From the NCBI GenBank assembly GCA_027451445.1, contig DAIDJG010000569.1, forward strand, positions 1 through 49,902: a stretch of 49,902 nucleotides of DNA. Reading direction: 5' to 3'. This document shows positions 9,186 through 41,686 of this stretch, in pieces (the stretch's first letter is position 1; each line of letters opens with the position of its first letter). A program made the position numbers and the translations under genes. The notes under the pieces are model-generated. The model did no database searches and was not told the origin of the DNA. It was given only the letters and a program-made list of their open reading frames with translations. This stretch comes from Singulisphaera sp. (GTDB taxonomy: Bacteria; Planctomycetota; Planctomycetia; Isosphaerales; Isosphaeraceae).

Positions 9186-10087
9186 TTCAGAGCGCCGCGG
9201 GCTCGGTTTGGGACCGTCCCGCGTGTGCGGGAAAGCGCTCGGTTTCCACTCTGATGGTACTCGACTTCGCCGAGCCGCCCTCAATAACGCGGCTACCCCT
9301 TCCCCCGTCGCCATCCCAACATCTCGCCTCAATCCAAGCGGACCGTTGACCGGTCAATCCTTTCTGTTACATTAGACATTTGCCCCGAGGCTTTGATGCT
9401 TCGTGGTCCTCGATCGGCCGGGGTCCCCTTCTTGCCCACGGCATCTGCTGGCGGGTCCGAATGCATTTCGGCCGAAAGGTTTACGCGATTTTGACTTTCG
9501 GATGCGCGACCGGTGTCGCCTGTGTATCAGCACACGCGCACATGGCGGTCCGTTACCGGAGAACGACACTCCACTTTCTGTTCCAGTTGAGGCACCGCGG
9601 GTATGTGGGTAGTCCTGGGATTGTGGCTCCTCGGGTTCTGGGCGTGGCGCGGTGCGCCGCGCGCGTTGGACCATTGGAGAGTCCACATGGCCAATTCGCT
9701 GCCGTTTGGCAAGGGAATTGACGAATCCTCGGATCCTGGCATCCGCGGTCGACTGGGACAGTGCGGGAACCCGTTTCAACCAAGGGGGGACGATTCCCCA
9801 GAGGTTGGCGTGCGGGGCGCGGCCGTTGCGCCGTGCTGTTGGATGGCCTTTTGCGCGGCACGACGATTGGGCTGCGTTTCAGGGGCGCCTCTCTCCCTTC
9901 TCCTCGTTGTGTAGTGCGGAAATGCGCTTCGCGCGAGTCTTGGTGTGTCGTTAACGGTTCCGGTCTCGCCTTTGTCGGATCTTGGTCGGAGCGGGGTTTC
10001 CTGACCCGTCTGCTTTGGATCGCGGCTCCGGCGGATCGCAGGGTGCGCCCGGAAGACGACCACAAGAACGAAAGTTGAGGCGCTGAC
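9186..10087. other. Gene-poor stretch of about 0.9 kb before rny
   Basis: No recognisable gene was found. Two overlapping plus-strand frames look faintly protein-like. One (9461-9721) begins with a signal-peptide-like segment; the other (9603-9914) begins with a tryptophan-rich hydrophobic segment. Neither has a good ribosome-binding site or known family. A promoter-like pair sits at 9346-9373. The stretch could hold the rny leader, a non-coding RNA or a decayed gene. Confidence 0.45.
9346..9373 (+). promoter_or_regulatory. Sigma70-like promoter in the gap before rny
   Basis: TTGACC (9346-9351) and TACATT (9368-9373) are separated by 16 bp. It is about 710 bp ahead of the rny start, so it would give either a long leader or a separate short transcript. 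Confidence 0.45.
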
Positions 10088-11644
10088 GTGTTTGGGAACA
10101 TTGTGGGGTGCCTTCTCGCGCTCCTCGCCGGGATCGGGTGTGGCTGGGGGGCCGCACAATACCTGGCGCGCGTGCGAGCCCAGACTGCTCGAGGTCTCGC
10201 CGAGGAGATCCTCGCCAGTGCTCGGCGCGAGGCCGAGAACATCCGCAAAGAGGCCGACCTTGGCTCGAAGGAAGAATCACTCCGCCGGCGGGAAGCTCTC
10301 GACGTTGAAGTCGAAGAAGCTCGGCGCGACCTGCGCGACCAGCAAAAACGCCTCGAAAAACGCGGTGACTTGCTCGACCAGAAGCTCGACATGATTAACA
10401 AGCGGGAACGCGAATTCGAAAGCGTGCAGCGCTACCTGACTGAGCAGCAGGAAGACTTAAACCGCCGCGGTCAAGAAGTGAAGCAGATTCTCAGTGAGCA
10501 ACGCGAAGTGCTGCACCGCACGTCGCAGCTCGGGCCGGACGAGGCCAGGGCGATGCTTCTGAAACGGCTTGAGGACGACCTGCGCCATGAGGTCGGAGGG
10601 CTCATACTCAAGCACGACCAGCTCCTCAAGGACACGTGCCAGCATAAAGCACGCGAGATCCTCGCCACGGCGATTCAGCGCTACGCCGCCTCGCATACCG
10701 CGGAAACGACCGTCAGTACCGTCGACATCCCGACGGACGACATGAAGGGACGGATCATCGGTCGCGAAGGAAGGAATATCCGTGCCTTCGAGAAGGCGAC
10801 GGGAGTCGACGTGATCGTCGACGATACGCCGGGCATCGTGATTGTCACGGGCTTCGACAACGTCCGGCGCGAGATTGCCAAGATTGCACTCGAAAAACTG
10901 ATCCAGGACGGCCGGATTCACCCCACGCGCATCGAGGAAATCGTCAAAGAAACGCAGGAGGAGATGGAGCAGCACATCAGGCGAGTCGGCCACGCCGCTG
11001 CGCAAGAAGCGAATGTCCCTGGACTGCACGAGAAACTGCTCGATCTCCTGGGCCGGCTCAAGTTCCGCACCAGCTACTCTCAGAACGTGTTGCAGCACTC
11101 GCTCGAAGTCGCCTATCTCACGGGCTTACTGGCCGAAGAGCTGGGCCTCAACGGTGCGCTGGGGAGGCGGTGTGGTCTTTTGCACGATATCGGAAAGGCC
11201 GCCGATCACGAGATGGAAGGCGGCCACCCGGTCATCGGCGCCGAGCTGACCAAACGTTATGGTGAGGTGAGAGAAGTTGTCCACGCGGCGCTCGGCCACC
11301 ACGATGATCTCCGTCCGGAGAATCCGTATACGGTGCTGGTCGCTGCCGCGGACGCGATCAGTGCGAGCCGCCCAGGTGCGCGCCGAGAGACCCTCGAGAA
11401 GTACGTCCGCCGTCTCGAAGAGCTCGAGGCACTTGCCTGCGGGTTCCCTGGTGTCGAACAAGCGTATGCCATTCAGGCGGGTCGCGAAATCCGCGTCATT
11501 GCCGACAGCCAAAGGCTCAACGACGAAGAGTCCGCCAAGCTTTGCCGTGACATCGCCCGTGCCGTGCAGGACCAATTGACGTATCCTGGTGAAGTGAAGG
11601 TCACCGTTCTTCGCGAGTCGCGTAGCGTTGAGTTTGCGCGATAA
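10088..11644 (+). CDS. rny: Ribonuclease Y
   Basis: A 518-residue protein with the full RNase Y architecture. An N-terminal membrane helix (residues ~4-26) is followed by a long coiled coil rich in Arg/Glu (~30-190). The KH domain carries [15 protein letters not shown] (~220-235), and the HD domain has His366-Asp367 in LLHDIGKA plus ALGHHDD later. RNase Y is a membrane-anchored endoribonuclease that starts mRNA decay. The chosen start is GTG 10088, directly before the membrane helix. Length and domain order match the family closely. The next gene is ymdB, the same order as the ymdA-ymdB pair of Bacillus, which supports both calls. Confidence 0.97.
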
Positions 11645-11741
11645 GAGCTGATCTCTTCATTCAAACCTTTCGCGCCACGGTTCAGCATCGCTACGGATTC
11701 CATCCTCAGATCATTTCACTTGCAGCGGAAAGTCAGGCACG

Positions 11742-12560
11742 ATGCCCCTGAAGATTCTCTTTATCGGCGACGTCGTCGGCTCGCCGGGACGTAAGATCGT
11801 CGGGCAGGTCCTGCCCCGGCTCATCCGGCGCTGGGACCTTGGGCTCGTGGTGTGCAACGCCGAGAATTCCGCGGGCGGATCGGGGATGACGGCGCGTTGC
11901 CACGAGGAACTCGTCGACGCCGGCGTCGATGTTTTTACGCTTGGTGACCACATCTATCGGAAGGATGAGGTGTTCGCGCTCTTCGAGCAGACGAATCGGC
12001 TTCTCAAGCCCGCGAACTTTCCCCCGGAAGCACCGGGGGAGGAGTCGGCGATCGTCGAAGCGCGAGACGGAACACCTGTGGGGGTCTTCACGTTGCTTGG
12101 CCGGACGTTCATGAAGCCGGTCGACTGCCCCTTCCGCGCGGCGGATCGGCTCCTCGAACAAATGGCGCGCAACGCTCGCGTCATCATCGTCGACTTTCAC
12201 GCCGAAGCCACCAGCGATAAACAACTCCTGGGTCGTTATCTCGACGGCCGCGTGACCGCGGTCCTTGGCACGCACACGCACGTCGCAACGGCCGACGAAC
12301 AAATCCTTCCTCACGGTACGGCCTATCAAACGGACGTGGGAATGACGGGGCCGCACGACTCGATCCTTGGTCGTCGTTACGACCGTGTACTCGCGGCGAC
12401 CCTCACGTGCGTGCCTCATTACTTTGAGGTTGCGACAGGCGATCCCCGGCTGAACGGCGCGTTGATCGAAGTCGACCCCGACAGTGGGAGGGCGCAAAGC
12501 ATCGTGCGAGTGGCGATCAATCATACCGAAGCGCAGAGACTTTTGACGGACGCGACGTAA
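11742..12560 (+). CDS. ymdB: YmdB-type metallophosphoesterase (cyclic nucleotide phosphodiesterase family)
   Basis: The 272-residue length is normal for the YmdB/TIGR00282 family. The di-metal site is readable: FIGDVVGSPG with Asp10, NAENSAGGSG, LGDHIY, VDFHAEATSDK and GTHTHVATAD. Near the end comes MTGPHDSILG, a hallmark of the family. YmdB of Bacillus hydrolyses cyclic mononucleotides and affects biofilm and RNA metabolism. The 97 bp spacing after rny on the same strand suggests co-transcription. The stop at 12560 lies only 4 bp from the stop of the convergent phosphotransferase gene. Confidence 0.93.
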   Translation: MPLKILFIGDVVGSPGRKIVGQVLPRLIRRWDLGLVVCNAENSAGGSGMTARCHEELVDAGVDVFTLGDHIYRKDEVFALFEQTNRLLKPANFPPEAPGEESAIVEARDGTPVGVFTLLGRTFMKPVDCPFRAADRLLEQMARNARVIIVDFHAEATSDKQLLGRYLDGRVTAVLGTHTHVATADEQILPHGTAYQTDVGMTGPHDSILGRRYDRVLAATLTCVPHYFEVATGDPRLNGALIEVDPDSGRAQSIVRVAINHTEAQRLLTDAT

Positions 12561-12564
12561 GAGG

Positions 12565-13572
12565 TCAGCGGCTGTCGTCGCGAATTTTCTGTCTGAGCCG
12601 AGCGAGCCCTTTTTGAATTCCGCGTGTTACGTCGCCGCGGTCGCGAAATGTCCGCTCTTCGAGATAGAACCAGCGAGCCCAGTGCCCCGCACCGAGCAAT
12701 GCGGCGGACATTTCAAACGCTTCGATGAGGGGCGTCTCGACCTCATCCAGCGCCTGGACCGCGTCGTAGGCTGTGAGCGCACCGGCACGCGCTGCGCGGT
12801 CGGAGCCGATCCATTCGCACAGCAGCCGCGCGAGGTCAGTCGCAACGCACTCGAATCCCATCGCACCGAAGTCGACGAGACCCGCGACTCGGTCCCCTTC
12901 GAACAGAAAATGCTCGGGGCGGGCGTCTCGCAAGCAAGGTTGTCGCCAACACGTGAGCCCCGCAACTTTGTGAAGCGATTCGAGCCAGGCCGGGGCGACT
13001 TTCCGCGCTTCGTCCAACCATTGACGCGCGAATGGCGTGGCGGAGTCCTCGGGACGCTGGCGCAAGCGCATCTCAAGGCGTGAAAAATCGGTCGAGAGCC
13101 ACGACTGTAGCTCGTTCAAACGCGATTGTAAGCCGGGACTAGGTCCCGTCGAACCCTCGGCTCTGAGCCTCTGGTGGAAGGCACCGAGGGCGGCAAACCC
13201 CGCGCGGACGCGATTTACGGTCTTTGTATCCGGAGTTGCGGGCTGCCCTGGAAGCCACGGGGCGAGTTCCCAGAGCCGGCCGGCACAAGCCTGAATCGTC
13301 TGGCCGTCGAGTGCCTCGAGTGGTCGTGGAACGAATCCGGTTGGTGCGGCTTTGCAGATCCAACGATGAATGATTTCGAGCGCGGGTCGGGGAGGTCCCT
13401 CGGGAGGCCAGGCACGCAGGACGAGAGCGCCACGGCCCGAAGCGTACCGCCACAAGCGCGCACCGCTGAGCCCCCCGGCGTTTCCCAGGCCTACGAGGTC
13501 ACCGCTGGGACGCGCGATCGCCGGATAGCGCGTAAGGACGGCCCTCAGGTGTCGGTCCCACTCGGAGGTCAT
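12565..13572 (-). CDS. Phosphotransferase of the APH/choline-kinase-like fold, atypical active site
   Basis: About 335-346 residues depending on start: ATG at 13572, 13584 or 13605. None has a clear ribosome-binding site, and all lie inside the end of the upstream plsC gene, so translation is probably coupled. The fold is recognised by an N-lobe with ARLWRYASGRGALVLRAWP and by a C-lobe with LRDARPEHFLF followed by VAGLVDFGAMGFE and DLARLL. This layout is that of aminoglycoside-phosphotransferase-like kinases. However, the catalytic loop HGDxxxxN reads LRDARPEH here, so the leading His and the metal-binding Asn are replaced. The substrate is unknown. It may be a small-molecule kinase or a degenerate homologue. 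Confidence 0.7.
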   Translation of the reverse strand: MTSEWDRHLRAVLTRYPAIARPSGDLVGLGNAGGLSGARLWRYASGRGALVLRAWPPEGPPRPALEIIHRWICKAAPTGFVPRPLEALDGQTIQACAGRLWELAPWLPGQPATPDTKTVNRVRAGFAALGAFHQRLRAEGSTGPSPGLQSRLNELQSWLSTDFSRLEMRLRQRPEDSATPFARQWLDEARKVAPAWLESLHKVAGLTCWRQPCLRDARPEHFLFEGDRVAGLVDFGAMGFECVATDLARLLCEWIGSDRAARAGALTAYDAVQALDEVETPLIEAFEMSAALLGAGHWARWFYLEERTFRDRGDVTRGIQKGLARLRQKIRDDSR

Positions 13573-14329
13573 CTTCGGGTCCATCAGATTGCCGTACGCC
13601 CTCATGAAGGCTGCCGAGCGCCCGCCGCTGAAGCGCTCGGATAGCGTCCATCATCTGCTCGGCAACGATGGCCAGCCGCTGCTTGTCGATCGGGCCGTCA
13701 GGAATCGGGCCGGTCAGATCGATCGGTTCGCCATAGATGACGCGCGTGTGTGACGGGGTGATCAATCCGCGCCAGACCTGATTCGTCGCCGGGGTGCCCC
13801 AAATGAACGCGGGGATCACGGGCACTTTGGCGTGCAGGACGAGGAATGCCACGCCCGGTTTCGCCTCGAGGAGCGTCATCCCCGACGTGGGATTGATCCG
13901 TCCCTCAGGAAAGATGGGTACAACACGCCCCTCGTCCAGCGCACGAAGCGCGGCACGTGTCGCGGCGAGGTCGTGACCGTCACGTCGCACCGGGATACAG
14001 CCGAGCAAGCGGCACATCGGTCGGAGTGCCCAAAACTCGTAAAACTCCCGCGCGATCAAGAAGCCCAACACGCGCTGACTCGAAGCCTGCAAAACCATCG
14101 GGTCAAGACCTGCCGTGTGGTTTGAGATCAGGATGGCGGCCCCTTGTGCTGGGACAGGTGCCATGACTGGGGCTTCCAGGCGGTGCCAGACCAAGCAGTA
14201 GAGTCTGTTGACGATCCAGAGGAACTTTCGCACGCCATGGATCTCGGGTCGGCTGCGTTTGCCTGTGATCAGAGCCCAGGGACTCAGCAAGACCACGCCG
14301 GAAAGCAGAAGTAAGGAAAATGGATTCAT
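13499..14329 (-). CDS. 1-acylglycerol-3-phosphate acyltransferase-like (PlsC family)
   Basis: A 276-residue protein from ATG 14329, which sits directly before a hydrophobic helix (NPFSLLLLSGVVLLSPWAL). In-frame sequence upstream of this ATG looks non-coding. PlsC motifs are clear: SNHTAGLDP gives HX4D with His71 and Asp76, and IFPEGR lies at 139-144. Family members acylate lysophosphatidic acid at the inner membrane in phospholipid synthesis. The last ~40 residues are polar and overlap the start of the phosphotransferase gene by ~70-105 bp in another frame. That is a large overlap and suggests the tail is a recent extension, or that the downstream start lies later. Confidence 0.88.
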   Translation of the reverse strand: MNPFSLLLLSGVVLLSPWALITGKRSRPEIHGVRKFLWIVNRLYCLVWHRLEAPVMAPVPAQGAAILISNHTAGLDPMVLQASSQRVLGFLIAREFYEFWALRPMCRLLGCIPVRRDGHDLAATRAALRALDEGRVVPIFPEGRINPTSGMTLLEAKPGVAFLVLHAKVPVIPAFIWGTPATNQVWRGLITPSHTRVIYGEPIDLTGPIPDGPIDKQRLAIVAEQMMDAIRALQRRALGSLHEGVRQSDGPEDDLRVGPTPEGRPYALSGDRASQR

Positions 14330-14770
14330 CGCGTGGGCTCGTTCACGTTGCAGCGGCGTTCTCGGCGGCGCACGTCCTAAGGAGGTCTCGGACGGCTCAA
14401 TTGTCCGGGAATCGGAAACTCGGTCAAGGCGGCGATCGCAGACGAATCTTGGGGCGAATGGTCGATCGTTCGTCAGGACGAACCACGAGTGCAGCTTCGA
14501 CCAAACATCACCGTTTGGCGATGCCGCCACCGTTCTGAATCGCTCGGAAACGGGCGCACGACAGAATTCGGCGAACATCGACGCTGAGCCGGATTTTTGA
14601 TTGCGACCGCTATTATGCGTGGCTATAATTCGGCCCTGTATCTCGTGGTGGACTCGCGTGTTGCCTGTGTGATCTTCGTGACTACACAGGGTCGGAGCGA
14701 GTTGATCATCCGGATTTCCCCACCAGCGGACGACCGCAGTCCACCGAGTGATTCCTTGAGGAGAAGATCG
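14330..14770. other. Divergent intergenic region between plsC and the small lipoprotein
   Basis: About 440 bp without a convincing gene. It contains the promoter at 14601-14629 and a long 5' leader for the lipoprotein gene. Any plsC promoter on the minus strand must also lie here, but none was obvious. Confidence 0.5.
14601..14629 (+). promoter_or_regulatory. Promoter for the small lipoprotein gene
   Basis: TTGCGA (14601-14606) and a perfect TATAAT (14624-14629) are 17 bp apart. Transcription from here would give a leader of roughly 135 nt before GTG 14771. Confidence 0.6.
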
Positions 14771-30724: not shown

Positions 30725-30963
30725 CGTTCTCGATGAACGCAGGGCGAATTTCTGCGAAAGCGCGGAACCAAAAGCGCGCGCAGTCGCTCCCATTTTGCGT
30801 TTACTGATCGACCCGCCCCGACGGTGAATCAGCATCGACTGCACGATTGCGATGGTGAGTTTTCGGCGATCGGTTAAAGTACGCGTCACGTGACTCCCAC
30901 TCGGACTTCGTTCATGTCCCCCGAGTGGTGTTCTGGACGGCTTCACGATTCACCGATCGGCTG

Positions 30964-33906
30964 ATGCGCGAAGGATTGCGCGGATTCGCGTGGTTTGTCC
31001 TGGCGATTGGGATCATTGGAGTCGGATTCTCCGACGCCCAGGACGTCCCGGTACGTCCGTCGGATCAGCGGCCGCGATTGACCATTCCTCCCGGCTTGCC
31101 CCGTTATCAGATCGCCGCTCGGCTTGAGCTCGATCGCAGACAAGTGGTTGCCCATCAAGCGGTTGAATTTACGAACCGAACGCAGGTACCGGCACGCGAG
31201 CTCGTGTTCCACGTTTATCCACGTTATCGGGTCGAGGACAAGGACAAGAAGAGCCTCTCCAAAACTCTCGAAGTGTTACGACTTAGCCCGGACGAGGCGA
31301 TGGACCCGGAGGGCCGGCGCCTCGCCGTATCGAGCGTTCGGGTCGCTGGTCAGAGCGTACCTTTCGACTTTGATCCGAGGGTCGACACAATCATGAGCGT
31401 GCCGCTCCCGCGCGAGGTGGCACCCGGAGAGAAGGTTGTCGCGGAGATCGATTACATCGTCGACCTTTCGGAATTCTGGGGCCGCTGGGGACATCATCGG
31501 AGCATCACGTACCTGCTCAACTGGTATCCCGTTCTGGCACATCACGATGACAAAGGCTGGGAGCGGACCCCTTTCGTCCCGTGGCACCAGCCTTGGCACC
31601 AGGAAGCGGGGCATTACACAGTGCAGTTCGACCTTCCCGAGGGACAGGTCGTTGCATCGACCGGAAAGATCACCCGCGTCGAACACCGCCCGAGGGGTCG
31701 CCAGAACGTCACCATCGTCGCCAGGCCCGCGCGAGACTTTGCGTTTGTGTGTTCTGATCGTTTTGAGGTCCGCGAACGTCAGGTCGGTGCTACGCGCGTG
31801 AGAGTGCTTGCTTTTCCCGAACATGCGTCGAACGCCGAGCACGTGATGGAGTACGCGTCCGAGGTCATCCCGCTCTATGAAAGCTGGTTCGGCCCGTATT
31901 ACGACGATGAATTCGAGGTGGCCCCTTCGTTCTTCGGCTGGAACGGCAACGAATGCTCGGGCCTGGTCCTGCTTGACGATCGCGTTATGCGCATTCCGTC
32001 CGCAGGCGCCCGCTACCTCGACCACCTCGTCACGCACGAAACGCTGCACCAGTGGTTCTGGAACGTTGTCGGCACCGACGGCTACGCCGAGACGTTCATG
32101 GATGAAGGGATTGTCAACGGGATCACGGCGATCCGCCTTGATCTGAAATACGGCCGGAACGCTCCCTTGATCACATGGCAGCGCAACATTCGGTGGCTGC
32201 CGACGATCGGGCGTGAGGACCTGCGACTCGCCGGTTATTACGGCTGGCGTGCCCGCGGCAACAACGGGCCGGTGATCCAGGACCTCGCGGCGATGAAGAA
32301 TCTGGGGGCGCTTTTCAGCCTCGCCTATGACCGCGGCGGCAAGGTCATCGGAATGATTTATAACCGGCTGGGACCGGACCGGTTCAACGCCTTCTTCCGA
32401 AGGATCTACTTCGACTTCGCCTACAAGACGTTTCACTACGGCGATCTCAAGCGCGAGCTCGTCGAATTCGACCCGGAGGGCGACTGGGCGCGGTTCCTGG
32501 ACGGCTGGCTCATCGAGCATAAAGACACCGACTGGGCGCTCGTCGGAGTTCACGACGGCACGCCGACGCTCCGTAGTACGCAACGCGAGGTGGTCGTCGA
32601 GCTCCAGCAGAAAGGTTCGATGATTGAACCAACCGTCGTGCTCTGTCGGTGCGGGGACACCGACCTGCGGGTGCCGATCTGGCCTGACCGCGGCAGTTAC
32701 AATGTCCCAGGCGCTCGAGTCGAACACGACGATAAATCCGACCGCTGGGTCATACGCGTTCAAGCGCCAGCGGCTCCGAACCAGGTGCTGGTCGATCCGG
32801 ACCACGCGCTTCTCGATGCGGTTCCCGATAACAATCGCTGGAGGCCGGAGGTCTCGTGGCGGGTCACGCCGTTCATGACCCCGCTCGACGAGTCCGGCCA
32901 GTTCCAGGCCTATGATCGGCCATCGATCGTCGCCGGTCCGTTCATCGACCAGTATGCGCGCGGTGGGTTCAAAGTCGGCTTGCAACGTATCGACAAATGG
33001 CAAATCACCGCATGGGCTGGAACCGAGCCGGCGCTGAGGGAGGCGATCTTTGGCGGCCAGGCCACCCTCTTTCATTTTCCCTGGCCGAGTTGGTCGGCGG
33101 GGCTGTTTTACGAGGAGGGCCTCTATAACTGGTACAACGACCAACGGCACTCCGGCGGTCGTGCGTTCCTGCGTTATCGATTGCTCGAGTCGACGAGTTT
33201 TCTGACGGATGACCAGGGCTTCGCCGAGCTCTACTTCGGCACCGGCTGGGAATTCTGGGCCGGCGACGACGGACGCCCGATCCAGACCGGCCAACTCCGC
33301 GCGTTCGGCGGCCGGTTCCACTTGAGCACACTCTTTCCATATTGGGACCCTGTCGAGGGTTACGTCGTCGATGCATCCGCCGAGTACGGCAATAAGGCAT
33401 TCGGATCGAATTTCGATTACACGCGGGCCACGCTTGAATACGGCATCGTGCGAGCGCTCCCGACCTGGTCCGGCGAGCGTTCCAAAAGCCGAATCGCAAT
33501 ACGCGGGTACGGCGGCTTTGGATCCCCCGATAACCTCGACCTCTTCCGTCTTGGTGGCGGACGGCGGCTACGCGCGCTCGACCTCAGTCAGAATCTGGGC
33601 AGCTCGGTCTGGCTCGCCACGGTGGAGTGGCGTTACCCGCTCTGGCAGGAGCTTGACCAGGACCTTCTCGACCATGTGCTCTGTCTCAAGAACCTCGTCG
33701 GTGCCGTGTTCTTTGACGTGGGCCAGTCGTATTTTGCCGGCCGCTGGGCACCGGTGGTCTTCGGACCCGGGGTGGGGATCCGGATCGACACGGCACTCTT
33801 CGCCTTCCTCGAGCGCGCGACGATCCGAATCGATATCGCACAACCCGTAGGGCTGAACCGAGCGCTTGGCCCGGTCCTTTGGTTTGGTCTCAACCAGGTC
33901 TTTTGA
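30964..33906 (+). CDS. M1-type zinc peptidase fused to an Omp85-like outer-membrane barrel
   Basis: About 980 residues. ATG 30964 begins a clean signal peptide (MREGLRGFAWFVLAIG). GTG 30925 upstream is also possible and is used for the numbering here. The N-terminal half is M1 peptidase-like, with a beta-rich domain and then the zinc site HETLH (His371, Glu372, His375) followed 18 residues later by Glu394 in FMDEGI, the gluzincin spacing. The half ends with VLVDPDHALLD. The C-terminal ~310 residues are alternating amphipathic strands with FRLGGGRRLRAL and VWLATVEWRYPLW, resembling the Omp85/BamA barrel. The chain ends in phenylalanine (LWFGLNQVF), as outer-membrane beta-signals do. No POTRA repeats are seen. 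I infer an outer-membrane protein carrying its own peptidase domain. The usual M1 aminopeptidase motif GxMEN is replaced by NECSGL, so specificity is uncertain. Confidence 0.82.
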   Translation: MREGLRGFAWFVLAIGIIGVGFSDAQDVPVRPSDQRPRLTIPPGLPRYQIAARLELDRRQVVAHQAVEFTNRTQVPARELVFHVYPRYRVEDKDKKSLSKTLEVLRLSPDEAMDPEGRRLAVSSVRVAGQSVPFDFDPRVDTIMSVPLPREVAPGEKVVAEIDYIVDLSEFWGRWGHHRSITYLLNWYPVLAHHDDKGWERTPFVPWHQPWHQEAGHYTVQFDLPEGQVVASTGKITRVEHRPRGRQNVTIVARPARDFAFVCSDRFEVRERQVGATRVRVLAFPEHASNAEHVMEYASEVIPLYESWFGPYYDDEFEVAPSFFGWNGNECSGLVLLDDRVMRIPSAGARYLDHLVTHETLHQWFWNVVGTDGYAETFMDEGIVNGITAIRLDLKYGRNAPLITWQRNIRWLPTIGREDLRLAGYYGWRARGNNGPVIQDLAAMKNLGALFSLAYDRGGKVIGMIYNRLGPDRFNAFFRRIYFDFAYKTFHYGDLKRELVEFDPEGDWARFLDGWLIEHKDTDWALVGVHDGTPTLRSTQREVVVELQQKGSMIEPTVVLCRCGDTDLRVPIWPDRGSYNVPGARVEHDDKSDRWVIRVQAPAAPNQVLVDPDHALLDAVPDNNRWRPEVSWRVTPFMTPLDESGQFQAYDRPSIVAGPFIDQYARGGFKVGLQRIDKWQITAWAGTEPALREAIFGGQATLFHFPWPSWSAGLFYEEGLYNWYNDQRHSGGRAFLRYRLLESTSFLTDDQGFAELYFGTGWEFWAGDDGRPIQTGQLRAFGGRFHLSTLFPYWDPVEGYVVDASAEYGNKAFGSNFDYTRATLEYGIVRALPTWSGERSKSRIAIRGYGGFGSPDNLDLFRLGGGRRLRALDLSQNLGSSVWLATVEWRYPLWQELDQDLLDHVLCLKNLVGAVFFDVGQSYFAGRWAPVVFGPGVGIRIDTALFAFLERATIRIDIAQPVGLNRALGPVLWFGLNQVF

Positions 33907-33948
33907 GGCCACGTGATCGGGGCTACTTCGTGCCGGACGAGTCCTTTT

Positions 33949-33977
33949 TTGACAACTCGACGGGTGAGACATAGGTT
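33949..33977 (+). promoter_or_regulatory. Promoter candidate for the FHA-PilZ gene
   Basis: A perfect TTGACA (33949-33954) and TAGGTT (33972-33977) are 17 bp apart. The site lies about 170 bp before ATG 34144. Confidence 0.4.
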
Positions 33978-34143
33978 TCAGTCGACAGGGCGGGAGAGAC
34001 CACAGCCTGGAAGGCGACCCCAGACACCGGCGCCCGCACCGACGCGTGGTCCCTTTTCAGTGGCCAACCGCGGTCTCCTGTGCGCTGTCGTCGTACGTCA
34101 TCACCAAGGATCTCACGGTGCGTCCTGCCACGAGCTTCAATCG

Positions 34144-35703
34144 ATGAACTCATTCCTGGAAGCCGCCGGGGTGGTCAGCCCCTGGCAATTGAGCATCGAG
34201 AGCCAGTCGGCTCCCAAGGTTACCTGCCCATCATTTAGCACGCCCTTCGTCGTAATTGGGCGGGAATCCAATTCGGATCTATGCCTCGCGCACAAAGACG
34301 TCAGCGAGCGCCACGCCCTGTTACAATGGATCGATGGGCATCTCTATGTGGTCGACCTGGGGAGCCGTAACGGCGTTCTCTGGGAAGGGCAACGCCAGCG
34401 CTCGGGATGGCTGGCTCCCGGTAGTACGATTCGGATCGGTCCCTATCGAATTGGTCTTTCGCCCGGGTCGGTTCCCTTGGACCGCGCGCAGCCCCCACGC
34501 CTCGATGATCCTACGTTCCAGGAAGTCGCGCTCGATATCAAGCTCCGCGGCATCCGTTCCATCGAAGGACGGGTGCAGGGCCGTTTCGCGCTTTTGGGGA
34601 GCGCCGCCGAGTGTGACGTGCGACTGCTTGACCCGACGGTGGCCACCTATCACTGCGCGATCGTGAATACGGCGCAAGGCGTTTGGCTGGTCGACCTGCT
34701 GGCACCCCAGGGCGGGACCATCGTTAATCATGAGGAAGTGCGCTGTGTTTGTCTCACCGAGGGTGCGACCTTTGAAGTCGGTCGTTCGGCGATCCGCGTC
34801 GCGGGAGCCGAAGCGGCCGCGACACGTTCAATGCCGGAAGTGGCCGTCCCTGAACCCGTCGTGACCCGGTCGACTCAAGAGAACGCACCCGTCGCGGTCG
34901 AGCTTGCTCCCGCGGTGACGCTCCCGACGGACGTGCGTCCGTCGGCGATTCCTTCACCGCACCTTCCACCCGTCCACGAAGTCGCCGCCGTGTCCGCGCC
35001 GAAGATCTCCCAGGGCTTGGGTCGCAGCGCTGCGCTGCCGTGGAGTCGGCATCGGGGTGCCGGTGCCTCGAGCCGGAAATCGTTGTGGGACGAGCCCGCA
35101 GCGGCCGACGAGACAGCGCCCGATCCAACTCGATGGGTTAAATCGCGGCCGCCGCAACGAATTGAGCCCGAATCCGTGGATAGCCGGACCGGAAAGGACC
35201 GGAGAACGTCATGCCGGTATTCCATCAACAATCGGCGCGCCGAGATTTCCTGGTTTGACGCAAACCCTGCGCCGGCTCTGGAGCTGAAATCGAAGAGCGC
35301 GGAGCCGAGCGTGTTCTCGCCGATCCTCTCGCGGATCCCCGGATTCCGGGGTGCGGCAACGGCTCTGGCGGCCCGTGACGCTGTCGAACCGATCGAAGAG
35401 GAGAAACCGATCGGGCGCGAGGCGATCCAGAACCGTACTGTGGTCGTGTCACTCGTCGACGTCAGTCACGCCGGTCTCGCCGTCCTGAGCCCGGCGGTGC
35501 CTCCCCGAGGAGAGCGTGTCTGGTTCCGGCTCGAAAACTCCGAAAACCCGGATTGGATCGAACTGACCACCGTGGGCGCATCGACGACGCCGGAGCAACT
35601 GCACCTGGTACGCTTTGCATTCCGTGAATCATGTCCATATGATTTGTTTAAGTCATTGGTATTTGAAAGAATTTCCGCGAGGACGGAGGACCGGCCGGAG
35701 TGA
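34144..35703 (+). CDS. Two FHA domains plus C-terminal PilZ-like domain
   Basis: A 519-residue protein from ATG 34144 (MNSFLEAAG). The open frame extends further upstream, but that part reads as non-coding. FHA 1 (~25-105) has VIGRESNSDLCL, SERHALLQ and DLGSRNG, the three core motifs for phosphothreonine binding. FHA 2 (~125-210) is weaker (LLGSAAECDVRL, ATYHCAIV, LLAPQGGTIVN): the Ser/Arg of the second motif is replaced, so binding may be lost. A long proline/alanine-rich linker follows. The last ~120 residues hold a PilZ-like domain with DRRTSCRY (RxxxR-like) and VSLVDVSHAGLAVLS (DxSxxG). The domain order couples Ser/Thr-kinase signalling to cyclic-di-GMP binding. It ends with CPYDLFKSLVFE, matched in the next gene. 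Confidence 0.85.
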   Translation: MNSFLEAAGVVSPWQLSIESQSAPKVTCPSFSTPFVVIGRESNSDLCLAHKDVSERHALLQWIDGHLYVVDLGSRNGVLWEGQRQRSGWLAPGSTIRIGPYRIGLSPGSVPLDRAQPPRLDDPTFQEVALDIKLRGIRSIEGRVQGRFALLGSAAECDVRLLDPTVATYHCAIVNTAQGVWLVDLLAPQGGTIVNHEEVRCVCLTEGATFEVGRSAIRVAGAEAAATRSMPEVAVPEPVVTRSTQENAPVAVELAPAVTLPTDVRPSAIPSPHLPPVHEVAAVSAPKISQGLGRSAALPWSRHRGAGASSRKSLWDEPAAADETAPDPTRWVKSRPPQRIEPESVDSRTGKDRRTSCRYSINNRRAEISWFDANPAPALELKSKSAEPSVFSPILSRIPGFRGAATALAARDAVEPIEEEKPIGREAIQNRTVVVSLVDVSHAGLAVLSPAVPPRGERVWFRLENSENPDWIELTTVGASTTPEQLHLVRFAFRESCPYDLFKSLVFERISARTEDRPE

Positions 35704-36300: not shown

Positions 36301-36362
36301 GTCGCCTCGGCCGGTTACGGGTGACCGGCCTTAACTCGCCATTCATCCGGGCCTTCCTCCCC

Positions 36363-37760
36363 ATGCTTCAGCGTCGGCTGAGACTTCTTCAAGCTGTTAG
36401 CTTGAACATGTCGACAATGGTCGGGATGGGCCCGTTCATCACGATCCCCTTGTTTCTGGCCACCATGGGTGGTCCCCAGGCGATGATCGGCTGGGTCCTG
36501 GGCGCGATCGTGGCGCTCTCCGACGGTCTCGTATGGAGCGAGCTCGCCGCAGCGTTCCCCGGGTCCGGCGGAACGTACCATTTCTTCGACGCAATCTACG
36601 GCGAGTCGCGATTCGGACGAGGCGTGAAGTTCCTCTTCGTGTGGCAGTTTCTTTTCAGCGCCCCGCTCGAAGTCGCATCAGGCGCGATCGGACTGACGCA
36701 ATACGCCGGTTTTCTCTGGCCTGGTTTGGAACGAACGGCGTGGCACATCACCGCCGCGGTTCCCCTGGTTGGGCTACTCGATTGGCACGTCGCCTGGGGG
36801 AAAGTTTTGGCGATGGGTGTGATGCTCGCCATCACGGTTCTCGCTTACCGACGGATCGAAGTTGCAGGGCGGCTCATGGTCGTTCTTTGGGTCGGAGTGC
36901 TCGTCACCGTGATATGGGTCATCGTCGCCGGGTTCGCTCATTTTGACGCGGGCTTGGCGTTCGATTTTCCGCCAGGCGCTTGGACGGTCGACCGTCGATT
37001 TGTCATGGGTCTCGGCGCAGCCGTTGCGATCGCGATGTACGACTACGTCGGCTATTACCAGGTCTGCTATCTTGGCGACGAGGTGGTTGATCCCGCGCGG
37101 ACGATCCCGCGTTCGATCGTAATCTCCGTCTTTGTTGTGGCAATCGCCTACCTCGCGATGAATGTCAGTATCGTCGGAGTGCTCCCGTGGCGTGAGGTCA
37201 TCGAATCAAAGCACGTGGCCACCGACGTGATGTTGCGCTTGCATGGGGAATCCACCGCGCATGTGGTCACGCTCTTGATCATCTGGACCGGTTTGGCATC
37301 GACCTTCGGCGCACTTCTCGGATATAGCCGCGTCCCCTACGCCGCAGCGTGCGCGGGCCATTTTTTTCGAGGCCTCGCCAAGACCCATCCTACGGGGGAG
37401 TTTCCGCACCGCTCGCTGCTGCTCATCAGCGGGCTTTCCACCCTTGCGTGCCTGGCCGATCTGGAAACCGTGATCGCCGCTCTCCTGACGTCACGGATCT
37501 TGGTTCAATTCGTTGGCCAAATCCTCACTGTATTCTATCTGAGAGGGCGCACCGACCTTCGCGGAAGGCTGCCCTTCCGCATGATCCTTTTTCCGCTCCC
37601 CGCGCTGCTTGCGCTCGTAGGCTGGCTCTTCGTGTTCGTGACGTCTCAGCAACGGACCGTGCTCTATGGACTCGGCTCCCTAGTTCTTGGATTGGCCGCG
37701 TTCGGATTGTGGGATCGCCCGCAGCGCACGCTGTCAGAGTTCGACGCCCCCACGCCATAA
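36363..37760 (+). CDS. APC-superfamily amino acid permease
   Basis: A 465-residue protein from ATG 36363 (MLQRRLRLLQAVSLNMSTM). An in-frame GTG at 36321 would fall inside the inverted repeat, so the ATG is preferred. About 12 membrane segments are visible. The helix-1 region reads NMSTMVGMGPFITIPLF, and the next contains ALSDGLVWSELAAAFPGSGGTYHF, which is the APC signature (E-L-x-x-x-x-P-x-S-G-G-x-Y). A later YYQVCYLGDEVVDPARTIPRSI matches the conserved cytoplasmic loop. Family members are amino-acid/proton symporters or antiporters in the inner membrane. The substrate is not evident. It stands alone, convergent with the LptFG genes. Confidence 0.9.
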   Translation: MLQRRLRLLQAVSLNMSTMVGMGPFITIPLFLATMGGPQAMIGWVLGAIVALSDGLVWSELAAAFPGSGGTYHFFDAIYGESRFGRGVKFLFVWQFLFSAPLEVASGAIGLTQYAGFLWPGLERTAWHITAAVPLVGLLDWHVAWGKVLAMGVMLAITVLAYRRIEVAGRLMVVLWVGVLVTVIWVIVAGFAHFDAGLAFDFPPGAWTVDRRFVMGLGAAVAIAMYDYVGYYQVCYLGDEVVDPARTIPRSIVISVFVVAIAYLAMNVSIVGVLPWREVIESKHVATDVMLRLHGESTAHVVTLLIIWTGLASTFGALLGYSRVPYAAACAGHFFRGLAKTHPTGEFPHRSLLLISGLSTLACLADLETVIAALLTSRILVQFVGQILTVFYLRGRTDLRGRLPFRMILFPLPALLALVGWLFVFVTSQQRTVLYGLGSLVLGLAAFGLWDRPQRTLSEFDAPTP

Positions 37761-37880: not shown

Positions 37881-39041
37881 TTACGTCCGAATCCCCCACC
37901 AGCGAATCCTTGCGTACGTCCCGAACCCGATCAGCGGTGCCCACGCGGCAAGCTCGGGCGGGATAACGGAATTGCCGCCGAGATACTGCGAGACAAAGAT
38001 CAAGGCATAGAAGATGGCAGAGGTCCCCAGGGAGAGCCCAAGATTGATGAACATGTTACGGCCGTATCCGCCGAGGACCAGCGGGAGGCTCATGAACATC
38101 AGCGTCAAGCTCAGAGCGGGGCGCAGGATGCGGCTGTGGAGGAAAACTGCCATCTCGATGCGATTGGACTCGTTCGACGGTAGCGTGAGGCCTCGGATCA
38201 GATCGACAGTGGGCGCGAACTGATACCACTCCGATCGGCGGGTCACGGACTGAAAATCGAGGTCTGTGCGCAGGAAGTAGCAGTCACCGCCCGCACTGAC
38301 GGGCTTGTCAAATGGGAGAGGGATTCCTTTCGGGTCGGCAACGCGTTCGATAATAGCGGACTCTTCTGTTTTCTCCTTCTCATCGAGCGGAGGATTCAAG
38401 CTTGCGTTTCGAGCGATCCAGCCTCCTCGGAGCGGCGACCTCAAGGCGGACTGAGGGATGTACCGCGCTTTTTCCGCCGTCAGTTCGCGAATCTCGCCCG
38501 AGACGCGAACGGGGAGCGTCGCACTGAAACCCATGACCGATTTTGTTCCGCGGTCTGCGTCTCGTCCGCGGACGTAAATGCTGTTGGAATCATAGGCACC
38601 CTTGACGTCGACCTTATCTTTACCGTCGTCGGCATGGTCCCGCTGCAGTTCCTCCGCAAAGCGGGGCATGATCACTTCCTGGTTGTAAACCGCCAGCAGA
38701 CTGACGATGACCGCCGAGATGAGAACTGGGCGAATCACTCGCTGGGTGCTGATGCCGGCGGCGAGCATGGCGAGGAGTTCGTTGTTCTTCTGCATCCACG
38801 TGACTGTAAAAATCGCGGCCATCATGCTGATGACGCCGCAGAGCCGGTCGTAATACTGGCTCATGTGGACCAGATAATAGCGACCGATGACCCAGACCAG
38901 CTCAGCGCCTTGCGCGCGCTTGAGGAATTCGTCGAAATTGGAGAAAGCGTCGATGACGACATTCAGGCCCACGAGCGCCGTGAAGCAGATCACGTAGGCT
39001 TTGAAAAACGCCCAGTATCGTTCGCGGTCGAGAATACGCAC
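37881..39041 (-). CDS. LptF/LptG family permease 2
   Basis: A 386-residue protein with the YjgP/YjgQ layout: three helices near the N-terminus (RERYWAFFKAYVICFTALVGLNVVID and others), a large periplasmic beta-rich segment (~130-270), then three helices (RPALSLTLMFMSLPLVLGGYG, AIFYALIFVSQYLGG, AAWAPLIGFGTYARI). LptF/LptG pairs extract lipopolysaccharide-type lipids from the inner membrane with the ATPase LptB. The ILDRERYWAFFKAY start matches the family opening (LDRYI...F). It lies 66 bp after permease 1. No lptA, lptB or lptC gene is in the window. I cannot say which of the two is LptF and which LptG. Confidence 0.88.
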   Translation of the reverse strand: MRILDRERYWAFFKAYVICFTALVGLNVVIDAFSNFDEFLKRAQGAELVWVIGRYYLVHMSQYYDRLCGVISMMAAIFTVTWMQKNNELLAMLAAGISTQRVIRPVLISAVIVSLLAVYNQEVIMPRFAEELQRDHADDGKDKVDVKGAYDSNSIYVRGRDADRGTKSVMGFSATLPVRVSGEIRELTAEKARYIPQSALRSPLRGGWIARNASLNPPLDEKEKTEESAIIERVADPKGIPLPFDKPVSAGGDCYFLRTDLDFQSVTRRSEWYQFAPTVDLIRGLTLPSNESNRIEMAVFLHSRILRPALSLTLMFMSLPLVLGGYGRNMFINLGLSLGTSAIFYALIFVSQYLGGNSVIPPELAAWAPLIGFGTYARIRWWGIRT

Positions 39042-39107
39042 GTAAGCACTCCCACGTCCTGCCCAGGGACACCGCGTCAGGTGGACTCAACCCACCGTTC
39101 CGGCGGA

Positions 39108-40322
39108 TTAGTGTTTGATGACCGGTGGAAGCACGATTCCTGTCAGCACGGCCATGACAAAGTTGCCCGACCACAGCGTCAGGATCGGATGATAGGCGCC
39201 TTCCTTGCCAAGGTTGATGCCGAGCAAGAGGAGCGGATAGTAGATGCCGATGATCGGCAAAAAGCAGGTGATGAACGCGCTCAAGAAGTCGCGACGTGCG
39301 AACCGAATTCCAACCGGAGCGCCGAGCAAGACGAAGAAAAAGCTGCCGAAAGCCAGGGAGTTACGAAACTGCTTCTCCGTCTCGTAGCCATCGTACCTGC
39401 GCTGCCACTCCCCGTAGTCAATGTAAGCCGTCTGAAATTCTTTCCAGTTGATGCCGGTGACTCGCCCCGAGCCAAATCCGAATGCGACGCTGATGGCCTG
39501 CCTTTTTCGCTCCTGGTCGATTAGGACCTTCACCTTCTTCTGCTCGGCGACGAGTTCCGTGTTGGTCCATTCTTGCGTCTTCTTCTCGAGGAGCATTCCG
39601 TCCCCTCCCGGAGGCAGAGGCATGTCTAACGTATTGTTGTTGATCAAGACGATGTTTTGATTCTTGCCGTTATTCGAGATCTCGGCATCCACGAAATAAA
39701 CATGCGCGACGCTATGCTCGTAGTCAAACCGGATCGTCGCCTTCTTGGCCTGGATGATGGTGTCGAACCGATCCATGTTGTCGAGGCTTTCACGATGTTT
39801 GAAGGTGGGATCGATCATCGTCTTGCCTTCGACCGTCCGGGCGAAAATCAAGAACGGCCAGCGCGGGTTCTTGAGCTCGTGGTCCTTGCGGAGAAATTTG
39901 TAAAACATCTCCTCCGAGTTCTTGAAGATGACGAGCTTGGCCTCGTGAGCGGCGCGCGGGATCCAGATGGCACTCAGGTAGACGAGCACGCCACTCATCA
40001 CGGCGCCCAGGATCCAGGTGGGAATCAGGACAATGGTGGCACTCTTACCGGCCGTCTTGATGGCGACGATCTCATTGTCCGACGCGAGCCGGCCGTAGAC
40101 CACGGTCACTGCGAACAGGAGCGAAACCGGGATTGTGAACGGAAGCGTGCTCGGGACGACGAACGGCACGAACCGTATGATGTCGCCTGGCGTGAGGCCG
40201 AATTTGAGCGCCTCAGCCATGACCATGAAGAGGACGAAGATCCCCGTCATGGCGACGAGCGCGAGGATGAAAGAACGCAGCACCTCGCCGATCACGTAGC
40301 GCTGAATGATAGTCAAGAACAC
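39108..40322 (-). CDS. LptF/LptG family permease 1
   Basis: About 404 residues from GTG 40322 (GTG-TTC-TTG), preceded by a good GGAGGG site. An ATG at 40421 overlaps the previous gene and lacks such a site. The opening TIIQRYVIGEVLRSFILALVAMTGIFVLF is the typical LptF/G first helix. FTIPVSLLFAVTVVYGRLASDNEIVAIKTAG is the conserved cytoplasmic block (the permease's contact with LptB), followed by a long periplasmic domain and three C-terminal helices ending near VLTGIVLPPVIKH. With permease 2 this forms the expected heterodimer for lipid export. The periplasmic domain is somewhat larger than usual. Confidence 0.9.
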   Translation of the reverse strand: MFLTIIQRYVIGEVLRSFILALVAMTGIFVLFMVMAEALKFGLTPGDIIRFVPFVVPSTLPFTIPVSLLFAVTVVYGRLASDNEIVAIKTAGKSATIVLIPTWILGAVMSGVLVYLSAIWIPRAAHEAKLVIFKNSEEMFYKFLRKDHELKNPRWPFLIFARTVEGKTMIDPTFKHRESLDNMDRFDTIIQAKKATIRFDYEHSVAHVYFVDAEISNNGKNQNIVLINNNTLDMPLPPGGDGMLLEKKTQEWTNTELVAEQKKVKVLIDQERKRQAISVAFGFGSGRVTGINWKEFQTAYIDYGEWQRRYDGYETEKQFRNSLAFGSFFFVLLGAPVGIRFARRDFLSAFITCFLPIIGIYYPLLLLGINLGKEGAYHPILTLWSGNFVMAVLTGIVLPPVIKH

Positions 40323-40399
40323 CGGCGCCCTCCGCTTCCTTGCACCAAGGCCCACCGGACCCGTCGTTTCGTGGCCGAATCGTTCGGTCACTTGTCCTT

Positions 40400-41686
40400 T
40401 TACGCGACCGTCTCGAGACATCCTGCATACGCCGCCGCGAGGCGCCGCGCGCCTTCGACGAGCTCAGACTCGCTGGGGACTCCAAAGCACAACCGTGCGT
40501 GGTTCCGAGGGACCGGGCCGGGCGACTCGGCGAAGGCGAGCGCACCTGGCACGTAGATCACCCCTTCTTCGAGGCAGCGTGCGAAAAAGGGCCCGTCCGG
40601 CCCGGTGTCGAGCCCTTCGGGGACCGTGAACCAGAGGAACAATCCCCCCTTGGGTCGCGTCCAGGTCACCGCGCCATCGAATCCCGCAAAGTGCTCATCA
40701 AGGGCCGCGAGCATCACGTCGCGCTTCCGTCGATATAACCCGATCAGTTCCGCAAGGTGGCGCTCATACGTTCCATCGGCCAAGACCCGATCGAGCACCT
40801 GCTGGGCGAAATGCCCTGAGCCGAAGTCATGGTTTCCTTTGAGCCTCAACACGGTCTCCAGGAGCGCGGGGGGCAAGACGCCGTAACCGGTTTTGAAACC
40901 GGGGCTGAACGTCTTGCTGAACGTACGCGCCAGGATCACGGTTTCGCCCTCGGGATCGTGTCGCCAAACGCTCGGTGCTTCGGCGTCCGAATAAGTGAGG
41001 CCCCGGTAAGCCGCGTCTTCGAGGATGAGGATCTTCTGCTCGCCGGACCAGCGTGCGATCAACTCCACCAAGGGTTTTCGGCGCTCTTCGGCCAGGCTGA
41101 TTCCGGTTGGATTCGAGTGCTCGGTGATCGTGTAAAGAAGCTTGACACGATGGAGCATTCCCTGGGCTTTAAGTTCCTGTAGGGTGGCTTCCAGAGCATC
41201 GAGCTTTAGCCCTCCCTCGTCCGTTTCGACCCCAATCGCTCGGGCCCCGCGAGTTTCCAGCACGCCCAGAAAAACGAAGTAAGTCGGCGATTCCACCAGA
41301 ACGATATCGCCCGGATCGAGCAACGCTTCGGCGATCAGATACAACAACTGCTGCGAGCCTGTCGTCACAACCGTGCGCGCAACGGACTCGCGAAAAGTCC
41401 CCGCCGGCACGTGCTCGTTCCGCTCAAGTTGCTCGATCAGATGAGTGCGAAGCTGCAAGTCGCCGATCGTGGTCCCATACTGCAACGCCCGGCGCCCTTC
41501 TACGGACTCCGACAAGACCCCCTCGATGGCCCTTCTCGCGGCCTCAACCGGGAGCGAACCTTGGTCAACAAACCCGGCAGCCAGCGAAACGAGGCCGGGG
41601 TTAGCCAAAGCCATCTGCATCATGGTGCTGATCGCGGGGGGTGAAGTCCGGGAGGAGGCTGAGCTCAGAGAGATCGGGCGTGTCAT
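40400..41686 (-). CDS. PLP-dependent aminotransferase (2-aminoadipate/MocR-type group)
   Basis: A 428-residue protein from ATG 41686 (MTRPISLSSA). Fold-type I features: SLAAGFVDQGSLP, LQYGTTIGDLQLR, TTGSQQLLYLIAEALLDPGDIV, ESPTYFVFL, YTITEHSNPTGISL, ILEDAAYRGLTY, and ARTFSKTFSPGFKTGYG with PLP Lys258. This matches the 2-aminoadipate/aromatic/alanine group of aminotransferases that lacks the GntR domain of MocR regulators. Its position inside the lipid-like array (between the phosphatase and LptFG genes) suggests it could make an amino-acid or amine part of an envelope lipid. That is inference; it could also be a housekeeping gene caught in the array. Confidence 0.9.
   Translation of the reverse strand: MTRPISLSSASSRTSPPAISTMMQMALANPGLVSLAAGFVDQGSLPVEAARRAIEGVLSESVEGRRALQYGTTIGDLQLRTHLIEQLERNEHVPAGTFRESVARTVVTTGSQQLLYLIAEALLDPGDIVLVESPTYFVFLGVLETRGARAIGVETDEGGLKLDALEATLQELKAQGMLHRVKLLYTITEHSNPTGISLAEERRKPLVELIARWSGEQKILILEDAAYRGLTYSDAEAPSVWRHDPEGETVILARTFSKTFSPGFKTGYGVLPPALLETVLRLKGNHDFGSGHFAQQVLDRVLADGTYERHLAELIGLYRRKRDVMLAALDEHFAGFDGAVTWTRPKGGLFLWFTVPEGLDTGPDGPFFARCLEEGVIYVPGALAFAESPGPVPRNHARLCFGVPSESELVEGARRLAAAYAGCLETVA

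Follow-up and report, generated by a model that had tools for sequence, protein, structure and literature searches.

A predicted fusion of an M1 zinc peptidase with an Omp85-type barrel in Singulisphaera

We analyzed a 49,902-nucleotide stretch of DNA from the 10.9 Mb genome of Singulisphaera sp. (contig DAIDJG010000569.1; "the window" is this whole stretch). One gene in it, an open frame at 30925–33906, encodes an M1-type zinc peptidase that is followed in the same chain by a predicted 16-stranded barrel of the Omp85 type. An earlier note on this DNA, made from the letters alone, had proposed such a fusion, and the M1 profile and fold, together with the finding of 16 strands in two structure models, bear it out. 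On balance, we consider that the protein is probably a zinc aminopeptidase that faces the periplasm and is anchored in the outer membrane by its barrel. All features of the gene lie on the forward strand and are numbered as in the window; conservation was scored in an alignment of 14 rows (the window protein and 13 full-length homologues).

The Pfam Peptidase_M1 profile (PF01433) matched residues 308–515 of the window protein with 43.3 bits, against a cut-off of 27.7 (E = 4e-11), and matched all 14 rows at E ≤ 0.1. When a full-chain AlphaFold2 (AF2) model was compared with solved structures, the best VIA match was 1z1w, tricorn factor F3 (Z 33.2 over 436 residues, root-mean-square deviation 4.0, model residues 57 to 662), and the 50 matches listed by Foldseek were all M1 enzymes (insulin-regulated aminopeptidase, E = 3.7e-20). 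The match to 1z1w indicates that the N-terminal beta domain and the thermolysin-like catalytic domain that the M1 family requires are both present in the model. We placed domain I, the beta domain, at residues 57–285 (31093–31779) from the AF2 secondary structure and the alignment to 1z1w, and catalytic domain II at residues 286–530 (31780–32514) from the Pfam match, the model, and VIA; both boundaries are approximate. The fold match spans M1 domains I and II and the beta-sandwich domain III; past that point, the protein no longer follows the classical M1 plan. Few parts of it are as well conserved as the catalytic domain, in which 63 of 245 columns (25.7%) are invariant.

Within this domain, the zinc site (32035–32106) reads H371-E372-T-L-H375, then exactly 18 residues, then E394, which is the HExxH-x18-E arrangement; H371, E372, H375, and E394 are invariant in all 14 rows. 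The gluzincin spacing that the earlier note had read from HETLH to a following Glu is therefore exact. The same note had held that the GxMEN motif of aminopeptidases is missing and that the activity might not be N-terminal trimming, and neither statement was supported. A phmmer alignment to ERAP1 set N-E-C-S-G-L of the window protein on M-E-N-W-G-L of the GAMEN motif, so that the motif is present in a changed form, N-G-N-E-C-S-G-L (NGNECSGLV, 31942–31968), in which the key glutamate is retained as E343; the absence of an aminopeptidase motif was rejected on this ground. E343 is invariant in all 14 rows, as is Y468 (32326–32328), which lies in a YDRG sequence at the position of the catalytic tyrosine. 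By analogy with known M1 enzymes, we take H371, H375, and E394 to be zinc ligands, E372 to activate the water, and Y468 to support the transition state, and E343 presumably binds the free N-terminus of the substrate. Because E343 and Y468 are both present, aminopeptidase activity is likely, as far as the sequence can tell.

The C-terminal part of the chain (residues 667–993; 32923–33903) is predicted to form the barrel. The full-chain model, built on 12 sequences (mean predicted local distance difference test score [pLDDT] 66.9, predicted template modeling score [pTM] 0.61), has 16 strands between residues 667 and 990, and a model of residues 636–993 (pLDDT 68.4, pTM 0.69) again has 16. The best 50 of 490 Foldseek rows for this barrel-only model were all BAM, TamA, or mitochondrial SAM proteins, which belong to Omp85 (E from 1.7e-6), and the 50 VIA matches listed were also all BAM, TamA, or SAM (Z 20.8 to 17.4), the best being TamA with Z 20.8 over 274 residues. 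A soluble beta-sandwich at the C-terminus, which the earlier note had named as an outcome that would overturn its proposal, was thus rejected on the strength of both fold comparisons.

The sequence profiles gave a more divided answer. NCBIfam NF047779 (Omp85_fam) matched the window protein at residues 808–993 (E = 2.7e-5) and matched seven of the 14 rows at E ≤ 0.1; PF01103, the Pfam Omp85 family, matched five of the 14 (best E = 4.2e-9), the window protein not being among them. When a profile of the barrels of the window family was compared by hhalign with the BamA-type barrels of three POTRA-bearing proteins, including one from the same genome, the probability was 97.1 and the score 82.9; 50 shuffles of the columns scored no higher than 22.3, and a reversed profile scored 15.5. 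The Omp85 profile match expected from the earlier note was therefore obtained in these three forms, but weakly, and with the window protein itself passed over by PF01103. The tie to solved Omp85 proteins rests on the predicted fold.

The strand-rich C-terminus and its landmarks, which the note had picked out, could be placed on the barrel: GGGRRLRAL falls in the loop between strands 11 and 12, EWRYPLW in strand 12, and the terminal Phe at the end of the final strand (33874–33903), where all 14 rows have Phe, as in a C-terminal beta-signal with an aromatic end. The strand 11–12 loop (33526–33603), at the position of L6, is the longest predicted outer loop (26 residues), and its RLRAL sequence holds the invariant R883. 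The L6 loop of Omp85 proteins carries a conserved RG motif; in the window family, the residue after R883 is Ala in 12 of the 14 rows and Gly in L014 and L015. The other outer loops are predicted to be short, except L4 (16 residues).

The earlier note had the peptidase joined directly to the barrel. The two do share one chain, but an M1-type beta-sandwich and a linker lie between them. The sandwich (approximately residues 531–618; 32515–32778), which resembles M1 domain III in the model and in VIA, is the least conserved domain, with 7 of 88 columns invariant. The 48-residue linker (619–666; 32779–32922) has 12 of 48 columns invariant, a density like that of the catalytic domain, and because the linker is conserved, the sequences suggest that the arrangement of peptidase and barrel is fixed.

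That no POTRA domain is visible, as the note also claimed, agrees with two results. No POTRA profile was listed for the window protein at E ≤ 10 (HMMER, however, filters out most matches with E above about 0.1), and in the model there are no helices between the strands of residues 531–627. We thus found no array of POTRA domains in front of the barrel, as in BamA and TamA. Nor does the protein combine a patatin domain with a POTRA in the manner of PlpD, its sole Pfam match being Peptidase_M1, or carry PF00149, which we take to be the calcineurin-like metallophosphatase family, ahead of its barrel; PF01433 alone matched at E ≤ 10. The same genome encodes a separate BamA-like Omp85 protein with three POTRA stretches, so the window protein need not be an assembly factor. 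Besides the window gene, this genome has one M1 match above the Pfam cut-off and one below it. As the genome has both a separate Omp85 protein and other M1 matches, the window protein is a specialized extra and not the sole copy of either function.

The 993-residue frame was confirmed as given, from a GTG at 30925 to a stop codon at 33904–33906. Judging from the alignment, the true start is probably the ATG at 30964 (residue 14) rather than the GTG, because several homologues start at this place in the alignment and because it begins a stretch that resembles a signal peptide (residues 14–38; 30964–31038, the cleavage site placed by eye). The frame is not a product of chance, since 11 relatives with 48–78% identity were found in 11 genomes, among them that of Singulisphaera acidiphila DSM 18658, which is complete. 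An assembly artifact or a fusion through a frameshift was likewise rejected, as the frame is single and continuous across many genomes, a complete cultured one among them.

The sensitive searches covered Planctomycetota; a scan of 84,980 species genomes relied on short patterns of peptides and so reaches near relatives only. Among 45 genomes searched in the family of the window, Isosphaeraceae, 21 carry a full-length version: in 18 it is a single match, in G413 and G404 one frame is matched in two pieces, and in G445 the two pieces lie on separate contigs. (The printed tally of this search, 37 of 45, also counts other M1 proteins.) Close relatives with names belong to Singulisphaera and to other Isosphaeraceae. 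In a sample of the phylum, at least 3 of 392 genomes carry the full-length version (the source genome, G307, and G344); these searches scored at most two candidates per genome with the protein and A5 queries and at most five with the A3 query, so that the phylum counts are lower bounds. Three public contigs titled Candidatus Kuenenia stuttgartiensis (L007, L008, and L011) also carry the gene. Their titles look wrong, because the Isosphaeraceae genomes G437, G436, and G434 match at the same places, and we rejected them as a sign of spread beyond the family. Plasmid records gave 24 matches, all below 60% identity and none spanning 80% of the query, and PHROGs gave nothing useful. In a tree of 51 M1 domains, the window family forms one clade, and the six rows nearest to it are M1 proteins without a barrel match.

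Two other planctomycete layouts resemble that of the window protein. The first is a family of M1-like proteins that lack the zinc site and are fused to an Omp85 barrel. With a profile made from two distant relatives, L043 and L072, strong matches (E < 1e-60) to this family were obtained in 13 or more of the 392 planctomycete genomes. PF01103 matches both L043 (5.3e-12) and L072 (1.5e-8), and neither has a Pfam M1 match. The 13 frames, L084–L096, come from G033, G020, G001, G023, G214, G178, G149, G164, G134, G018, G065, G118, and G191. HExxH is absent from all 13, of which L093–L096 are partial or cut and L095 starts past the site; in G065 and G191, a different contig holds the end with the barrel. 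The 10 frames longer than 800 residues were compared as a profile with the window family, and the two aligned over 804 columns, beginning at residue 58 and taking in the whole barrel (probability 99.9, E = 3e-36). According to the alignment made, these 10 members have other residues, in part or in whole, in place of the zinc ligands and of E343 and Y468. The M1-domain tree, which holds 10 of the 13 zinc-less frames, places them in a clade separate from the window family. A single fusion event for the window family and the zinc-less family, tested as one clade, was weakly rejected by this tree (approximately unbiased test, p = 0.024, with long branches and a group named post hoc) and was allowed, without support (67/34), by a barrel tree that holds 11 of the 13; short or cut frames were left out of both. 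In eight other planctomycete proteins (L044, L046, L071, L073–L075, L082, and L083), PD40 propeller repeats precede the Omp85 barrel. Four of them (L046, L074, L075, and L083) have an N-terminal Peptidase_MA_2 match under the cut-off, and L044, L071, L073, and L082 have no peptidase match. HEFTHQ occurs in L074 and L083 and HEYAH in L075; L046 is without HExxH. Seven of the propeller barrels (L044 was left out) matched the barrel profile of the window family with probability 99.0 and a score of 132.7, against at most 24.0 in shuffles. This is the top score of the three barrel sets compared, yet neither of the other sets is as diverse, and in the barrel tree the propeller proteins do not group with the window family.

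Several observations weigh against a barrel-anchored aminopeptidase. Both models were built on 12 sequences and have middling confidence, with parts of the barrel and residues 423–468 of the catalytic domain below 50 pLDDT; Y468 is the last residue of that stretch. NF047779 scored 23.8 bits on the window protein, far below its full-length cut-off of 200. PF01103 gave no listed match to the window protein at E ≤ 10 (again with the HMMER filters dropping most matches above about 0.1), and a PF01103 search of the whole genome at E 0.001 returned solely the other Omp85 gene. The barrel profile searched against the sequences of solved structures gave no BamA or Omp85 protein, only three weak and unrelated rows, and the barrel tree sets the window family on a long branch apart from the other three Omp85 sets. 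The zinc-less family shows that a chain of the same layout can persist without catalysis. Finally, the neighboring genes yield no functional or operon partner, gene order being kept among near relatives only.

The working model that we favor would run as follows. The chain would be exported via Sec, its C-terminal barrel would be inserted in the outer membrane, and the N-terminal M1 peptidase would sit on the periplasmic face, held there by the short beta-sandwich and the conserved linker. With H371, H375, and E394 holding zinc, E372 activating water, Y468 steadying the transition state, and E343 binding the N-terminus of the substrate, it would trim single residues off short peptides at the outer membrane. 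Classical M1 aminopeptidases are soluble or single-pass proteins in which a helical domain IV caps the active site; in the window protein, the barrel would stand in for this domain and would serve mainly as an anchor, as in PlpD, the patatin-type enzyme of Pseudomonas aeruginosa. The M1 fold and site, the order of the parts, the Omp85-type barrel, and the POTRA-less appearance are read from the sequence or from prediction, and from these we infer the export, the periplasmic side, the activity, the substrate, and the use of the barrel as an anchor and not a channel.

The side of the membrane on which the enzyme acts could be the other one, if an autotransporter-like barrel carried the M1 domain across the outer membrane so that it degraded peptides outside. 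Patatin-Omp85 was originally read in this way, as surface-exposed (Heinz and Lithgow, 2014; PMC4104836). Feeding on external peptides would also suit a heterotroph of soil or bog. In a barrel with an even number of strands, such as 16, however, both ends lie on the periplasmic side. The enzyme domain of PlpD, long held to be surface-exposed, has since been reported to reside exclusively in the periplasm (PMC11116518). By analogy, these two points make the periplasmic side likelier for the M1 domain, and a surface enzyme seems quite unlikely to us. Catalysis might alternatively be secondary, with the M1 fold substituting for POTRA domains and binding nascent outer-membrane proteins, so that the chain would be a scaffold or an assembly helper. 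The homologous zinc-less family, which shares the layout and occurs in 13 or more of the 392 genomes, speaks for this proposal, as does the fact that the Omp85 proteins under study before PlpD were ones that assemble or move proteins (PMC11116518). It is nevertheless unlikely, since the catalytic residues are invariant in every row, the catalytic domain keeps a quarter of its columns (25.7%) unchanged, and the genome has the separate POTRA-bearing Omp85 protein.

A further proposal would make the barrel an intake port through which short peptides pass straight into the M1 chamber, so that uptake and trimming are coupled. The order of the parts puts the barrel in the place of the domain IV cap, the predicted outer loops are short apart from L6 and L4, and an amino-acid permease gene lies nearby in the window, at 36321–37760, and also in 4 of 18 other loci (in one of them partly inside its stretch). 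The permease is weak evidence, because it belongs to the gene order of near relatives (save at L006, where the locus is rearranged) and because the remaining 14 of the 18 loci, with stretches of 9 to 20 kb, did not show it. Solved Omp85 barrels, moreover, are plugged by L6. We regard such a port as very unlikely. Similarly improbable is a broader version of it, in which Planctomycetota would use the Omp85 barrel as a general peptidase chassis, with a barrel that here replaces the M1 cap and, as a gated port, feeds peptides from outside to the active site, and with a related branch that has lost the zinc site yet keeps the chain as a receptor or scaffold. We give next to no chance to a soluble C-terminal beta domain on a secreted M1 enzyme of the ordinary sort: the middling model confidence and the failure of Pfam Omp85 on the window protein would agree with it, but every match listed in both fold comparisons was Omp85 (VIA Z ≥ 17.4), the profile match to BamA-type barrels was far above shuffles, and the Phe end is universal among the 14 rows. 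An aminopeptidase anchored on the periplasmic face thus remains the reading that we prefer.

Other genes of the window and of its relatives were noted in passing. Downstream of the M1-barrel gene, a forward frame at 33913–35703 encodes an FHA-domain protein that PilZ also matches weakly. The GTG listed as its start probably lies too far upstream, because the first Met codon is residue 78 (about 34144), which would leave a gap of about 240 bases to the M1-barrel gene. In the nearest relative, L010, about 5.4 kb (8989–14398) separate the M1-barrel gene from the downstream FHA frame. In the window, the gap is a few bases, or about 240 with the later start, and the difference points to an insertion or deletion between the two genes. 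Two adjoining LptF/LptG-type permease genes lie on the reverse strand at 37881–40421 and are a sign of lipopolysaccharide export, hence of an outer membrane in the source organism. In two planctomycete genomes, single chains combine M1 and M28 peptidase domains (L023, 970–3999; L040, 916–3849).

Among the open-licence articles of PubMed Central (PMC), judged on titles and the openings of abstracts, no published M1-Omp85 fusion was found, and we regard the window protein as a variant of the enzyme-Omp85 kind with an M1 passenger that we have not found described before. With the classical M1 enzymes (Escherichia coli PepN, tricorn factor F3, ERAP1, and LTA4H), it shares domains I–III, HExxH-x18-E, the GxMEN glutamate, and the catalytic tyrosine; it differs from them in the letters of the motif, NGNECSG in place of GAMEN. 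The zinc-less proteins L084–L096 have the same order of parts over their full length (as aligned for the 10 long members) but lack HExxH and form a clade of their own; they offer a natural contrast for the role of a barrel-bound fold without catalysis. The planctomycete propeller-Omp85 proteins, comparable to the WD40-Omp85 subfamily, share with the window family the top barrel profile score and, in four cases, a Peptidase_MA_2 match. They differ in the beta-propeller between enzyme and barrel, in a peptidase part that is short and is not M1 by Pfam, and in their place in the barrel tree.

Whether the window protein is called an Omp85 protein depends on the wording. By the barrel definition of Heinz and Lithgow (2014; PMC4104836), its predicted barrel makes it one; it falls outside the stricter wording of PMC11116518, which asks for at least one POTRA in the abstract and says "usually" in the introduction. 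The 10 Omp85 subfamilies of Heinz and Lithgow include POTRA-less ones, and the words "peptidase," "zinc," and "planctomycet" are absent from the main text of that paper. Its "Metallo" and "noNterm" subfamilies resemble the window protein in having a barrel without POTRA, and in "Metallo" the barrel is also preceded by an enzyme domain, a metalloprotease in the authors' terms; this domain is PF00149, however, and not an M1 peptidase. The closest parallel in design is PlpD, which likewise joins an N-terminal hydrolase to a C-terminal 16-stranded Omp85 barrel in one chain and uses the barrel as an anchor, but its passenger is a patatin domain of another fold and it has one POTRA domain (PMC11116518), where we found none in the window protein. 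PlpD led to the suggestion that the barrel can serve as a chassis for an enzyme, the Omp85 proteins studied earlier being ones that build or cross the outer membrane (PMC11116518). If our reading is correct, the M1-Omp85 family would extend the use of the barrel as an enzyme chassis to the hydrolysis of peptides and would give planctomycetes a peptidase bound to their outer membrane.

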